Positions 2,488 through 52,781 of a DNA stretch of 57,704 bases are shown piece after piece. Origin of the DNA: Nitrospirota bacterium (GTDB taxonomy: Bacteria > Nitrospirota > Thermodesulfovibrionia > Thermodesulfovibrionales > Dissulfurispiraceae). Each line of letters opens with the position of its first letter. Position 1 is the first letter of the stretch. Location of the stretch: the NCBI GenBank assembly GCA_004321915.1, contig SCQE01000055.1:1-57704 (forward strand). The letters run 5' to 3'. The notes beneath the pieces are model-generated. The model saw only the letters and a list, made by a program, of their open reading frames with translations. It made no database searches and had not been told where the DNA came from. The position numbers were made by a program, and so were the translations under genes.

Positions 2488-2514
2488 CAGGGATCGGGGA
2501 TCAGAGTTCAGGGA
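2488..2514 (+). repeat. Left inverted repeat flanking the four-helix-bundle gene
   Basis: 27 nt that match the reverse complement of 2918-2944 at 24 of 27 positions. The pair brackets the small gene at 2529-2906 inside an otherwise tightly packed che operon. This is the type of GGGATCNGGG-rich sequence that recurs between genes in some anaerobe genomes. Confidence 0.7.
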
Positions 2515-2528
2515 AAGGAAAGGGAAAA

Positions 2529-2906
2529 ATGAGTGTCAAGAGTTATCGTGATTTAGAAGTTTGGCGGAGGGCAATGGATTTGGTTGTCGAATGCTATAAA
2601 AGAACAAAAGGTTTTCCAAAGAATGAGGCCTTTGGCTTATCAAGCCAATTACAACGCTCGGCCGTATCTATTGCCGCTAATATCGCTGAGGGACATGCAC
2701 GACAGCACACCAAAGAGTTTATCCAGCATATATTCATAGCCTGCGGCTCTCTTGCCGAACTGGAAACACATATTTTTATAGCCGAACGTTTGAACTATAT
2801 TAACGCAGTTCAGTTGAAAGAACTAATAGATAAAACAGAGGAAATAGGCAAAATGCTCAACGGGCTTCGCAAGGCTTTGGAAGTGCGCTCCGGAGGGATA
2901 AAATGA
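2529..2906 (+). CDS. Four-helix-bundle protein (23S rRNA IVS / S23 family)
   Basis: This 125-residue protein has the marks of the S23/TIGR02436 family: an N-terminal Y-RDLEVW-A motif, FP-NE-FGL-SQL-RSA-SI-ANIAEG in the middle, and a helical C-terminus. Family members form pentameric four-helix bundles. They were first seen in intervening sequences of 23S rRNA genes and are now found widely as stand-alone genes; their molecular function is not settled. The DGR accessory protein Avd, also in this window at 41330, has the same fold. The gene interrupts the spacing between cheA and cheB, overlaps cheB by 4 nt (ATGA) and is bracketed by inverted repeats, so it looks like an inserted cassette rather than a chemosensory part. 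Confidence 0.85.
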   Translation: MSVKSYRDLEVWRRAMDLVVECYKRTKGFPKNEAFGLSSQLQRSAVSIAANIAEGHARQHTKEFIQHIFIACGSLAELETHIFIAERLNYINAVQLKELIDKTEEIGKMLNGLRKALEVRSGGIK

Positions 2907-3991
2907 CCGACGCCCGATCCCTGACCTCTGACGCCCGATCCCTGATAAAGGTGCTTATTGTCGAAGACTCGCCTGTGGTTAGGGAACTGCTGTTATATAT
3001 CTTGAGTTCCGACCCTGAAATCCGCGTTATAGGAACGGCAAACAACGGTGAGGAGGCGGTCGAATTCGTGCAGCGCGACAGGCCTGACGTCATTACAATG
3101 GACATAAATATGCCTAGGATGAACGGTCTCGATGCTACCCGCGCCATTATGGAGACCAATCCTGTACCTATCATTATCGTAAGCGGCAGCTATGACGTCA
3201 AGGAAGTAGATACGACCTTCCGCGCTATGGACGCAGGAGCGGTCGCGGCAGTGGCAAGGCCCGGTGGTATCGGGCATCCAGACCATGAGACTACGAAAAA
3301 GGAACTGCTTCATACAGTCAAACTTATGTCCGAAGTCAAAGTGGTGAAACGATGGAAGCATTACCGGCAAAAAGAGGCGGCGCCGGTCATTAAGCAGGAT
3401 TATAAATCCGATATCATCGCCATTTCTTCCGAAATAAGGTTGGTTGCCATCGGTGTTTCTACCGGCGGACCTCCGGTGCTTCAGGCCATACTGTCAGGGC
3501 TTCCTAAAGACTTCGGCGTCCCTGTTCTGATCGTACAGCACATTGCTGCCGGGTTTTTAGGCGGCATGTTGGAATGGCTTGGCAAGAGCAGCGCGATACC
3601 TCTTCATACTGCCATACACGAAGGACCTGTGCTGCCGGGGCACGCATATTTTGCGCCTGACGGCTTTAACATGGGCGTAGATCGGCAGGGCCGGACAATC
3701 TTAAGCAAAGACGTTCCTGAAAACGGGGTATGTCCTTCAGTCTCGTTTCTATTCCGCTCGGTTGCCGCCGTATACGGACAGAAAGCCGTAGGCGTATTGC
3801 TCACAGGCATGGGAAAGGACGGGGCGGAAGAATTGAAGCTGATGAGGGACAAAGGCGCAGTCACTATTGTTCAGGACAGGGAAAGCTCGGTTGTCTACGG
3901 GATGCCCGGCGAGGCGATCAGGCTTGGGGCGGCGGCCTATGTGCTTTCCCCTGACAGGATCACTGCGATGCTGTCATATTTGAAAACCTAA
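2903..3991 (+). CDS. cheB: Chemotaxis response regulator / protein-glutamate methylesterase CheB
   Basis: CheB removes methyl groups from (or deamidates) receptor glutamates when phosphorylated by CheA. The 362-residue protein has an N-terminal REC domain (Asp67 in TMDINMPRMNG), a linker, and the methylesterase domain from about 175. The Ser-His-Asp triad is visible: Ser186 in GVSTGG, His213 in QHI, and Asp306 in GMGKDG. Odd point: the first ~15 residues (MTDARSLTSDARSL) are encoded by the right-hand inverted repeat, so the native start was probably remodelled by the insertion. The REC fold proper begins at KVLIVEDS. No CheR gene is present nearby. Confidence 0.95.
   Translation: MTDARSLTSDARSLIKVLIVEDSPVVRELLLYILSSDPEIRVIGTANNGEEAVEFVQRDRPDVITMDINMPRMNGLDATRAIMETNPVPIIIVSGSYDVKEVDTTFRAMDAGAVAAVARPGGIGHPDHETTKKELLHTVKLMSEVKVVKRWKHYRQKEAAPVIKQDYKSDIIAISSEIRLVAIGVSTGGPPVLQAILSGLPKDFGVPVLIVQHIAAGFLGGMLEWLGKSSAIPLHTAIHEGPVLPGHAYFAPDGFNMGVDRQGRTILSKDVPENGVCPSVSFLFRSVAAVYGQKAVGVLLTGMGKDGAEELKLMRDKGAVTIVQDRESSVVYGMPGEAIRLGAAAYVLSPDRITAMLSYLKT
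2918..2944 (-). repeat. Right inverted repeat, inside the 5' end of cheB
   Basis: This is the inverted partner of 2488-2514 (24/27 matching positions). It encodes part of the non-conserved N-terminal extension of CheB and also contains a short direct duplication (GACGCCCGATCCCTGA appears twice from 2909). Confidence 0.7.
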
Positions 3992-4009: not shown

Positions 4010-5431
4010 ATGGACGAACACTGCGGCAGGGGTGAGATACTTGTAGTGGAAGACAGCGCCACACAGGCGGAAGGGCTGAAATACATTTTGGAAAAAAACG
4101 GCTATGCAACGAGAGTGGCCGCTGACGGGCGTGCGGCCATTGACTTGATGCGGCAGAGCAGGCCTGACATGGTCATAAGCGATATCGTTATGCCCGAGAT
4201 GGACGGCTATGAGTTGTGCAAAAGAATGAGACATGAAGAAGGCCTCAAAGACGTGCCGGTCATACTTCTAACATCTCTTTCCGACCCGAAAGACGTTATC
4301 AAAGGCCTCGAAAGCGGGGCGAACAACTTCATCATGAAACCCTATGACGAACGCTACCTTCTTTCCCGCATTCAATACCTGCAATCCAATGCCGAGTTAA
4401 GAAAGGACATGACGGCGGAGATGGGCATCCGCGTATATTTCGCGGGGGAGCATTTTTTCATAAACGCGGAAAGGCTTCAGATACTGGACCTGCTGCTCTC
4501 GACCTACGAAAACTCCTACAATCAGAATTGCGAGCTTATCAAGACCCGGAACGAACTGAATGCGCTGAACGACGAACTCGAAAACAAGGTGCTGGAAAGG
4601 ACTGCGAAACTCGATGCCGAGATAATGGAGCGCAAGCGCGCCGAGGAGGAAGTTAGAGAGATATCCCAGCAGCTCTGGCAGGCGACGAAGCTGGCGACGA
4701 TGGGGGAATTGGCGGCGAGCATAGCGCACGAACTGAACAATCCTCTTGCGACGGTAAGCCTGAGGGTCGAGACCCTCCTGTCCCAAGCGGGACCGGAAGA
4801 AGCGTTTAAGCGACCGCTTGAGATCATAGCGCAGGAGGTTGAGCGGATGGGCAACCTTGTTGCGAACATGCTGCAGTTCAGCCGCAGGAGCGCTCAACAC
4901 ATATCTACCGTTGACGTGCGCGAGGAGATAGACAAGACCCTTGAATTGATCTACTACCATCTGCGCAAACGGAGCATAAACGTCGTAAAGGAGTTCCCTT
5001 CCGATGCAGCGCATATTCACGCGGACAGGCAGCAGTTGAGACAGCTCTTTTTAAACCTGTTTACGAATGCGGGCGACGCCATGCCGAAGGGCGGGACTTT
5101 GACGATACGGGTGTCATCAAAAAATGGGACGGTTCCATTTTTTGACGACAAACCCGAGAAAATAGAACCGTCCCATTTTTTGAGTATCGAGATCATCGAC
5201 ACAGGGAGCGGCATATCCCCGGAAAACCTTCAAAAGGTGATGACGCCTTTTTTTACCACAAAGATGGAAGGCAAGGGCACGGGGCTGGGACTGCCTATCT
5301 GCAAGCGTATTGCGGAGGAGCACAAGGGGACGATTGACATAAGGAGCGAAGAGGGCAAGGGTACGGCGGTGATCATTACGCTGCCGGTCGTGAACGGCAA
5401 CAACGTGAAGCAATTGAAAGGAGGCGACTGA
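4010..5431 (+). CDS. Response regulator-histidine kinase (REC-HisKA-HATPase)
   Basis: A cytoplasmic kinase with an N-terminal receiver: REC about 8-120 (Asp58 in VISDIVMPEMDG, Lys in FIMKPYD), a helical linker, a coiled coil (about 175-220), HisKA with His240 in SIAHELNNPLA, and a C-terminal HATPase with DTGSGIS and GKGTGLGL motifs. A receiver ahead of a kinase suggests it is itself switched by phosphorylation. I prefer ATG 4010 over ATG 4004 because GAGG at 3997-4000 is then 9 nt upstream. A perfect palindrome (5117-5183) is inserted in frame within the HATPase, adding about 22 residues between two conserved strands. The stop overlaps the next gene by 1 nt. Confidence 0.92.
   Translation: MDEHCGRGEILVVEDSATQAEGLKYILEKNGYATRVAADGRAAIDLMRQSRPDMVISDIVMPEMDGYELCKRMRHEEGLKDVPVILLTSLSDPKDVIKGLESGANNFIMKPYDERYLLSRIQYLQSNAELRKDMTAEMGIRVYFAGEHFFINAERLQILDLLLSTYENSYNQNCELIKTRNELNALNDELENKVLERTAKLDAEIMERKRAEEEVREISQQLWQATKLATMGELAASIAHELNNPLATVSLRVETLLSQAGPEEAFKRPLEIIAQEVERMGNLVANMLQFSRRSAQHISTVDVREEIDKTLELIYYHLRKRSINVVKEFPSDAAHIHADRQQLRQLFLNLFTNAGDAMPKGGTLTIRVSSKNGTVPFFDDKPEKIEPSHFLSIEIIDTGSGISPENLQKVMTPFFTTKMEGKGTGLGLPICKRIAEEHKGTIDIRSEEGKGTAVIITLPVVNGNNVKQLKGGD
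5117..5183. repeat. Palindromic element inserted in frame in the kinase gene
   Basis: Two 19-nt arms (5117-5135 and 5165-5183) are perfect reverse complements, separated by 29 nt. The GGGACGGTTC / GAACCGTCCC core belongs to a small repeat type I know from several anaerobe genomes. It is read in frame as SKNGTVPFF...EPSHFL and has no stop codon. Confidence 0.85.
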
Positions 5432-41333: not shown

Positions 41334-41662
41334 AAGAATCTCCGATTTTCGTAAAGACCTATGATTTTACAAAATGGCTTTTGGAGCATACTATCAAGTT
41401 CCCGAAAAGCCAGCGTTTTGTTATGGCGAAAAGAATAGAAGAAGCGGCGCTTAATTTTTATGATTTACTGCTTCTTGCCGTGAAGAAAGAGAAGGACAGA
41501 AAAAGTTTTCTGGAAGATGCGAGCTTTGAGCTGGAAAGGATAAAACACTATATGCGGCTTAGCAAAGACCTGAATCTGATGACTTTGAAACAGTACGAAT
41601 ATTCCTCAAAAGAGATAGTCGAGATAGGCAGGCTTTTGGGCGGCTGGATTAAAAAGGTGTAG
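41330..41662 (+). CDS. avd: DGR accessory variability determinant (Avd-like four-helix bundle)
   Basis: 110 residues, nearly all helical: [40 protein letters not shown] is typical of Avd. Avd pentamers bind the reverse transcriptase and the template RNA and are needed for mutagenic cDNA synthesis. The gene lies 19 nt before TR, the standard position. It starts at ATG 41330, overlapping the endonuclease gene by 4 nt, and its ribosome binding site (AAGGGGG) is part of a palindromic repeat. Confidence 0.9.
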
Positions 41663-42003: not shown

Positions 42004-43059
42004 ATGAAACGATACGGCAATCTTTTCTCTCAGATAACCTCTTTTGAAAACCTTTATGCCGCAAGCAGAAAGGCGCGCAAAGGCAAAAGGTTCAAAGATA
42101 ATGTTATGGCCTTTGAAAGAAATATCGAGGACGAACTTTTCAGGCTTCAGGATGAACTGCTTTCAAAAACCTATAAGCCCGGAACATACAGGGAATTTAG
42201 CATTTACGAGAGAAAGCCGAGAAAAATAAGCGCCGCGCCTTACAGAGACAGGATTGTTCATCACGCCCTCTGCAATGTTATAGAGCCGGTTTTTGAAAAA
42301 ACTTTTATATTCGATTCTTATGCCTGCCGAAAAGGCAAAGGCACTCATGCCGCGGTTGACCGGTTCACAGAATTTTGCCGTAAGAACAGATATGTGCTTA
42401 AGACGGACATAAAGAAATACTTTCCGAGCATTGACCATGAAATCCTTTTTGCGAAAATTAAAAGAAAGATAAAATGCAGAGACACGCTTTGGCTTATCAA
42501 GGCTATTATTGACGGCAGTAACAGGCAGGAAGCTGTGAATGACTATTTTGATGGAGACGGTTTGTTTGAACCGTATCAGCGCAGGCGCGGAATACCTATC
42601 GGCAATCTGACCAGCCAGTTTTTTGCGAACATCTATCTTGATGAGCTTGACCATTATGCAAAGGAAGTTCTGCGCTGCAAACATTACATCCGCTATGTTG
42701 ACGACATTACGGTTTTAGGCAACGACAAGAAAAGGCTGTGGGAGGTTAGAGACGGCATAGTCGGATTTCTTGAAAAGCACAGACTAAAGCTTCACCCTCG
42801 CAAAACTTTGGTATTGCCGGTTTCAGAGGGTATAGACCATTTAGGGTATAGAATATTTCCAACACACCGCCGGCTTAGAAAAGACAACAGCATGGGATTT
42901 GCGCGCAAACTGAAGATTATGAATCGTCTTTTTTTAGTCGGACAAATAAGCTTTGAAAAAATGAATGCTTCGGTACAAAGCTGGCTCGGGCATGCGAAGC
43001 ATACAGACAGCTGCGGACTGAGGGAAAGGATTTTTGAGAAATATGTATTTTGTTGTTAG
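42004..43059 (+). CDS. DGR reverse transcriptase
   Basis: 351 residues of the group-II-intron-like RT family of DGRs. RT motifs: [32 protein letters not shown], the first catalytic Asp in [14 protein letters not shown], the DGR-typical [19 protein letters not shown] (197-205 core), and the catalytic YVDD at 231-234, then HPRKTLVLP and FLGYRI-like HLGYRIF. It copies TR RNA into adenine-mutated cDNA that replaces VR. There is no maturase or endonuclease domain. The stop is followed by a repeat-type intergenic region. Confidence 0.96.
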
Positions 43060-52689: not shown

Positions 52690-52696
52690 ATAAGTG

Positions 52697-52732
52697 AGAA
52701 GTAAAAAGTGAGGGGTGAGAAGTTTTACTTCT
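52697..52732. repeat. Inverted repeat in the fabG-acpP gap
   Basis: AGAAGTAAAA (52697-52706) pairs perfectly with TTTTACTTCT (52723-52732); outer AAGTGAGAA/TTCTCACTT arms extend it (52692-52700, 52743-52751). It might attenuate or stabilise the mRNA, or be just a repeat element. Confidence 0.55.
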
Positions 52733-52781
52733 TATTTCCCATTTCTCACTTCCTAATTAAAGAAGACAACTGGAGGGTAAC

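Follow-up and report, generated by a model that had tools for sequence, protein, structure and literature searches.

A gene of the S23 family, bracketed by two convergent and degenerate arrays of 7- or 8-nt units, probably constitutes a widespread bacterial cassette that carries no transposase and whose product, a protein of the Avd fold, would recognise the arms. We observe this anatomy across many phyla, with the two arms of a locus coupled to each other, array units that covary with the S23 protein, and gene-less arrays that are associated with S23-carrying genomes. More tentatively, such cassettes may represent a new class of bacterial mobile element, in which a non-enzymatic ring of Avd-fold subunits would read a heptamer array, co-evolve with its arms and spread with the help of host enzymes.

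The S23 cassette between cheA and cheB

The window (the entire stretch of 57,704 nt analysed in this study) contains the following features of the cassette, its host operon and gene-less arrays:

129-175, + strand: gene-less 7-nt array upstream of cheA (array scan)
189-2483, + strand: CheA-like kinase of the host operon, with Hpt, HATPase, CheW and receiver domains (profile matches)
2484-2517, + strand: left arm, degenerate 7-nt array in G-rich/YAG orientation (lag-7 score 10.4, 20/28 matches)
2529-2906, + strand: S23 (four-helix-bundle) gene, 125 aa, Avd-like fold (PF05635, TIGR02436, AlphaFold2, Foldseek)
2903-2944, + strand: first 14 codons of the CheB-like protein, within the right arm (sequence, comparison with the CheB of relative G015)
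2905-2947, - strand: right arm, reverse-complement array of the same kind (lag-7 score 8.8, below the counting threshold of 10)
2945-3991, + strand: conserved part of the CheB-like response regulator/methylesterase of the host operon (profile matches)
52692-52752, no strand assigned: mini-hairpin without a gene, two 7-nt arrays converging on a short loop (array scan, sequence reading)

A sequence-only reading of this DNA had described the S23 gene as bracketed by inverted repeats pairing at 24/27 positions (2488-2514 vs. 2918-2944), and this is confirmed; in a background of 214 comparable pairs of segments elsewhere in the window, the best 27-mer match averaged 15.8 and peaked at 22, with 0/214 pairs at 24 or above. 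The idea of a fixed 27-nt repeat did not hold, the arms being sections of degenerate 7-nt arrays whose edges run slightly past 27 nt (units GGATCGG, GGATCAG and AGTTCAG on the left; GACGCCC, GATCCCT, GACCTCT, GACGCCC and GATCCCT on the right). The left arm lies directly 3' of the cheA stop and 5' of the ribosome-binding region of the S23 gene. The right arm is indeed, as that reading had suggested, the source of the non-conserved start of the CheB-like protein, whose first 14 codons encode MTDARSLTSDARSL and whose start overlaps the S23 stop as ATGA. In the relative G015 the N-terminus of CheB reads MIKVFIVDDS, and in the window IKVLIVEDS comes after the array peptide. A cheA-cheB junction without the gene, looked for in relatives, was found in G015: its CheA-like and CheB-like genes are neighbours separated by only some tens of bases, S23 is absent between them, and its CheB (49% identical to that of the window) starts at the conserved IKV. 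The cassette has probably replaced the spacer of such a junction and given CheB a new start overlapping the S23 stop.

When queried against its own genome, the left arm returned only the right arm, one 22-nt match elsewhere and a chance-level 15-nt match, and its core, with one mismatch allowed, occurs at seven further places. Further S23 genes in the genome, where the sequence-only reading had proposed to look for the same arms, turned out to carry different arm sequences. Fixed terminal inverted repeats, as in an insertion sequence or MITE, are rejected on the grounds of this difference between copies; what the S23 loci have in common instead is a period of 7 nt (sometimes 8 nt), an inverted polarity and a YAG core. 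Among other repeats of the window are a 25-nt inverted repeat (96% complementary, 17-nt loop) inside a sensor-kinase frame at 5117-5183 and, where the contig ends (1-100), a palindromic repeat of GTCATTCCCGCG...CGCGGGAATCC type, which we take to resemble known dispersed repeats.

Membership of the protein in the S23 family and its Avd fold, both part of the initial description, are supported by a full-length match to PF05635 (E 3e-40; 137.2 bits vs. a cut-off of 33.8), a match to TIGR02436 (131.9 bits vs. a cut-off of 24), a predicted structure of four helices (AlphaFold2, mean pLDDT 95.3) and Foldseek TM values of 0.88 to 2gsc, 0.76 to 2rld and 0.77 to Avd (4dwl). The solved relatives 2gsc and 2rld contain five chains per entry, and by analogy the S23 protein is probably a homopentamer. 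The Pfam search of the protein matched no transposase, including the Y1 domain, and returned only PF05635 and bAvd; with respect to Avd membership, the scores fall below both cut-offs (NF033474, 38.7 vs. 80; bAvd, 38.6 vs. 40). Of the proposed small mobile cassette without a transposase, the small size and the lack of a transposase stand and the fixed repeat does not, and its movement is what we infer. The only reverse transcriptase (PF00078) match listed for the contig is at 42211-42855, ~39 kb from the S23 gene. We found no S23 matches in phages and no match for S23 in PADLOC. At gathering score, no Rfam family matched any part of the window, the gene being located between cheA and cheB and not within an rRNA gene.

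Arrays and cassettes across phyla

The comparison covered 110 loci, namely 30 from relatives and the own genome and 80 named loci from many phyla, the latter being the best 80 of at least 551 confirmed relatives. Four of the seven PF05635 places of the own genome (G000) were used (L001-L004), with L005-L007 left out as weak or Avd-like; also left out were a fragment (L072) and two weak loci (L073 and L074) of the relatives. Within the 150-nt flanks of the best 80 named loci, the highest lag-7 match over 28 nt was 19.2/19.3 vs. 11.3-11.6 in background windows located 600 or more nt away, and the same measure in relatives gave 17.1 and 16.5 vs. 11.4-11.5. Other lags were at background except 14 (the double of 7) and, weakly, 8. 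By a stricter count (lag score threshold of 10) in these 110 loci, which include the best 80 of at least 551 named ones, an array is present on at least one side in 94 and on both sides in 70, with 24 loci passing on one side only and 16 on neither; several sub-threshold loci show weaker arrays by eye, and the window locus is itself tallied as one-sided because its right arm scores 8.8. The 28 period-7 arrays found in 805 control windows represent gene-less arrays nearby.

The two arms of one locus belong together. Their period is equal in 70/70 two-array loci (62 with period 7, eight with period 8, none mixed), and an inverted 21-nt match of at least 18 connects the flanks of 66/109 loci (L118, with its short upstream flank, is absent from this test) vs. 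11/545 cross-locus pairs and 0/194 far-flank pairs. Array length is variable between loci, with a median of 4.6 units per arm. No arrays were detected at five control loci matching PF05635 that are of other kinds (L005, L006, L007, L073 and L074); at L006 and L007, a reverse transcriptase gene lies no more than ~1 kb away. Separately, L066, L077 and L254 are flanked by repeats that are longer or in direct orientation (TTCAAACGGCTCAAACGG, for example) rather than by clear convergent 7-nt arrays, and the S23 genes of L066 and L077 have a GFERGGNQEF stretch in common. At L003, two 7-nt arrays (2695-2720 and 3120-3157) lie inside the gene downstream of the S23 gene, presumably, from its sequence, a cobyric acid synthase.

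Cassettes between tandem genes are mostly co-directional with them (73/82, p 1.4e-13; orientation from simple ORF calls, 18/130 loci being without usable neighbours), and the ATGA overlap at the S23 stop occurs in 8/130 loci. Some cassettes are located inside CRISPR arrays (L002, L054, L067 and L076, in genomes G000, G006 and G018), in line with a figure legend of PMC10910872 that places the S23 family among CRISPR-linked proteins. On a Nostoc plasmid the cassette sits between nrdB and nrdA, and a Calothrix plasmid of 85% identity is without a cassette there. At the trxB-thiI junction, 5/29 genomes of the G187 genus have a cassette and nearly all the rest another repeat, an occupancy implying that cassettes can also persist at one place. 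The filler in most of the cassette-less genomes (most of L257-L283) is a dispersed repeat of ~140 nt with the ends AGGATGCTCAAAATGG / CCATTTTCAGCATCCT. At a Dolichospermum junction that is 99% identical, another repeat is likewise found in place of the cassette. No target-site duplication was seen at cheA-cheB, cas6-cas4, nrdB-nrdA or trxB-thiI, with no clean high-identity empty site among them, and in two G006 copies and two Calothrix plasmids the shared sequence extends past the cassette and does not mark its ends.

Conservation at the same place across distant genomes, named at the outset as an argument against mobility, is not seen at cheA-cheB; it is seen inside one DNA methyltransferase gene, where the cassette is in place across phyla. 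Eleven loci (L051, L059, L104, L112, L118, L120, L134, L141, L144, L149 and L255) share the same point in the same type of host gene, which reads, from its sequence, as one kind of DNA methyltransferase; the host frame of L118 begins just before the S23 gene, where the locus is cut, and that of L051 changes before the cassette. A further cassette (L128) is in a PglX-type methyltransferase. The hosts were named from profile scans at five loci, which returned a type III methyltransferase for L255, L120, L149 and L104 and PglX for L128. The host frame is open through the gene and both arms in ten S23 loci. Among 130 S23 genes, with a median of 7 stops per gene in each of the +1 and +2 frames, the +2 frame is stop-free in 13 and the +1 frame in none; L132 has a stop-free +2 frame and no read-through. 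Synonymous shuffles of eleven genes gave zero stops in 0-145 of 500 cases, so an open frame alone is not remarkable for some high-GC genes. Nested methyltransferase cassettes occur in several phyla, each a case of two overlapping coding frames. Splicing out of the host message is disfavoured in these cases, since no stop interrupts the host frame along the cassette. The insert of L104 (762-888) matches the PADLOC PglX profile PDLC02522 at 286-415, and this profile may therefore contain the same insert.

Arrays without an S23 gene are also abundant. In 451 kb of the own genome, 18 period-7 arrays score 12 or above vs. 0-5 for every other period tried. Samples of 400 kb each, from eight S23-positive and eight S23-negative relatives, contained 21 vs. 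0 period-7 arrays and 7 vs. 1 period-8 arrays, with periods 6 and 9 reversed; the 21 arrays fall in four of the eight S23-positive genomes, the other four having none in the 40-60 kb sampled. Across the phylum, a strict motif occurs in 49/194 S23-positive vs. 6/101 S23-negative genomes (p 3e-5, counts that include the cassettes' own arms), i.e., 6/55 motif-bearing genomes are without S23. Among these six, G059 matches the motif 11 times (CTAGGGG type) and gave no hit to S23 with the threshold relaxed to E 10; it may reflect a recent loss of S23 or be a counter-example. Among 13 close array pairs in an 851-kb S23-positive sample, nine are convergent with the polarity of the cassette and none is divergent. 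The solo arrays do not exactly reproduce the S23 arms of their genome. As for the objection that arms might occur everywhere without the gene, gene-less arrays are common, as it supposed, but far commoner in genomes that carry S23.

Proposed array recognition and competing explanations

Array unit sequence differs from locus to locus and follows the S23 protein, a clear effect of modest size. Over 88 of the 110 loci, those whose array, period and protein were all clear, similarity of array units correlates with similarity of S23 proteins (rho 0.243 vs. a maximum of 0.144 in 500 permutations). The correlation is retained in pairs below 60% identity (rho 0.217 vs. a permutation maximum of 0.157), between phyla (0.236) and after GC correction (0.231; 0/1000 permutations for each of the last two), and it is 0.238 between phyla when Nitrospirota is merged with the relatives. 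On the protein tree of 109/110 loci (L086, of 70 aa, left out), the loci of period 8 cluster, requiring 8 changes vs. 10.6 when shuffled, with 3/500 shuffles as low. In a set of 72 of the 88 loci, at <70% identity, the oriented motif YYAGKGR was obtained from 5' arms (4.10 vs. 2.90 bits, n=59) and, independently, from reversed 3' arms (3.70 vs. 2.65, n=58).

From this covariation we infer that the S23 protein recognises its own array. With a median of 4.6 units per arm, each subunit would contact roughly one repeat; by analogy with the solved relatives, it is an attractive possibility that a pentamer reads some five of them. Through such recognition, the protein may enable enzymes of the host to copy the array-ended unit, or paste it, into operon gaps. 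Full cassettes, which include the gene, and mini-hairpins, which lack it, would then accumulate as RAYT genes and REP hairpins do. Cutting and joining by template switching at the hairpin during replication or repair would be our guess.

The strongest of the rival explanations, which we nevertheless consider rather unlikely, is an RNA-level element similar to the intervening sequence (IVS) of 23S rRNA: the arms would pair, RNase III would cut, and S23 would bind the 5' array of its own message for autoregulation or RNA protection, any spread being rare and incidental. This account agrees with the predicted RNA fold, where the arms form a terminal stem (z -3.18), with the co-directional placement of tandem-gene cassettes (73/82) and, in the sections of PMC4990558 available to us, with the Coxiella 23S IVS, which has a terminal stem, tandem GACAGAT heptamers and a 5' cut at the first repeat. 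Nevertheless, gene-less arrays are dispersed in S23-positive genomes, the open methyltransferase frame would be needless if the cassette were excised from the message, and the orientation bias in operons may reflect selection only. A second alternative, which we regard as improbable, has polymerase slippage making the arrays and S23 genes inserting or being tolerated there, with the protein uninvolved. Array length does vary, and in many genomes no long repeat unit is commoner than the heptamer, a fact ascribed to polymerase contacts in work cited within the consulted parts of PMC4679880 and PMC4692102; the convergent arms, the equal period in 70/70 loci, the between-phyla covariation and the scarcity of arrays in S23-negative genomes speak against it. 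Copying of the cassette by a reverse transcriptase encoded elsewhere, with S23 acting as an Avd-like aid, is suggested by the fold (TM 0.77 to 4dwl) and weak Avd profile matches and is very improbable, and unlikely as a general rule, since 14/26 S23-positive relatives (most of them near-complete) have no PF00078 match and no arrays are present at the two Avd-like loci of the own genome that lie next to a reverse transcriptase gene. Recognition of the array by the S23 protein, with spread of the unit by host enzymes, is the reading that we carry forward.

Relation to known systems

REPtrons consist of a RAYT gene flanked by REP hairpins. The S23 cassette resembles them in having a gene between inverted copies of a short repeat and, as a class, gene-less hairpins in the same genome, and it differs in that the protein is a helix bundle without the Y1 transposase domain and the repeat is a tandem 7-mer array rather than a palindromic REP. 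TRAP is an RNA-binding ring that binds (G/U)AG repeats; common to both is the notion that a protein ring reads repeats with AG at regular spacing, and the TRAP protein itself is presumably unrelated to S23. With Avd, the accessory protein of diversity-generating retroelements (DGR), the S23 protein shares the fold (TM 0.77 to 4dwl), but no reverse transcriptase is beside the gene and the scores are under the Avd and bAvd cut-offs.

The 23S rRNA IVS of Coxiella and Leptospira likewise has an S23 ORF and terminal inverted repeats forming a stem, and for Coxiella the available sections of PMC4990558 place tandem heptamers beside this ORF; unlike these IVS, the cassettes described here are in protein-coding operons, CRISPR arrays and a methyltransferase gene, in many phyla. 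Dispersed heptamers, as covered by the consulted parts of the respective papers, include GGGAATC in Xanthomonas and GGGGA(C/T)T in Nostoc (PMC4692102) and TAACTGA in Beggiatoaceae (PMC4679880); they are similar to the arrays of this study in being 7-nt tandem arrays, mostly intergenic and partly in convergent pairs, with 70 and 75 such pairs in two Xanthomonas genomes (PMC4692102). The term S23 is absent from the main text of PMC4679880 and PMC4692102. S23 genes, rRNA IVS and dispersed 7-nt repeats are treated apart in the portions consulted of PMC4990558, PMC4679880, PMC4692102, PMC10053308 and PMC10910872. In titles and abstract beginnings of the open-licence literature, no link was found between S23 genes in general and heptamer arrays, or between S23 genes and methyltransferase frames, and no paper on an Avd ring structure was found in the open-licence literature.

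The present finding ties together S23/four-helix-bundle genes, rRNA intervening sequences and dispersed 7-nt repeats, and provides S23 with testable roles, both biochemical (recognition of its own array) and genetic (spread of array-ended units). If arrays are indeed spread by a protein without a catalytic domain, DNA would be mobilised in an unusual way, and the tentatively proposed new class, if true, would explain S23-bearing rRNA IVS, the heptamers of Xanthomonas, Nostoc and Beggiatoaceae, as well as the in-frame nesting of S23 genes within defence methyltransferases.

Elsewhere in the window, an Avd-like gene at 41345-41641 is followed by the reverse transcriptase at 42211-42855, with several inverted repeats around, and together they probably form a diversity-generating retroelement; a second pair of an Avd-like gene and a reverse transcriptase is located on another contig, C13.
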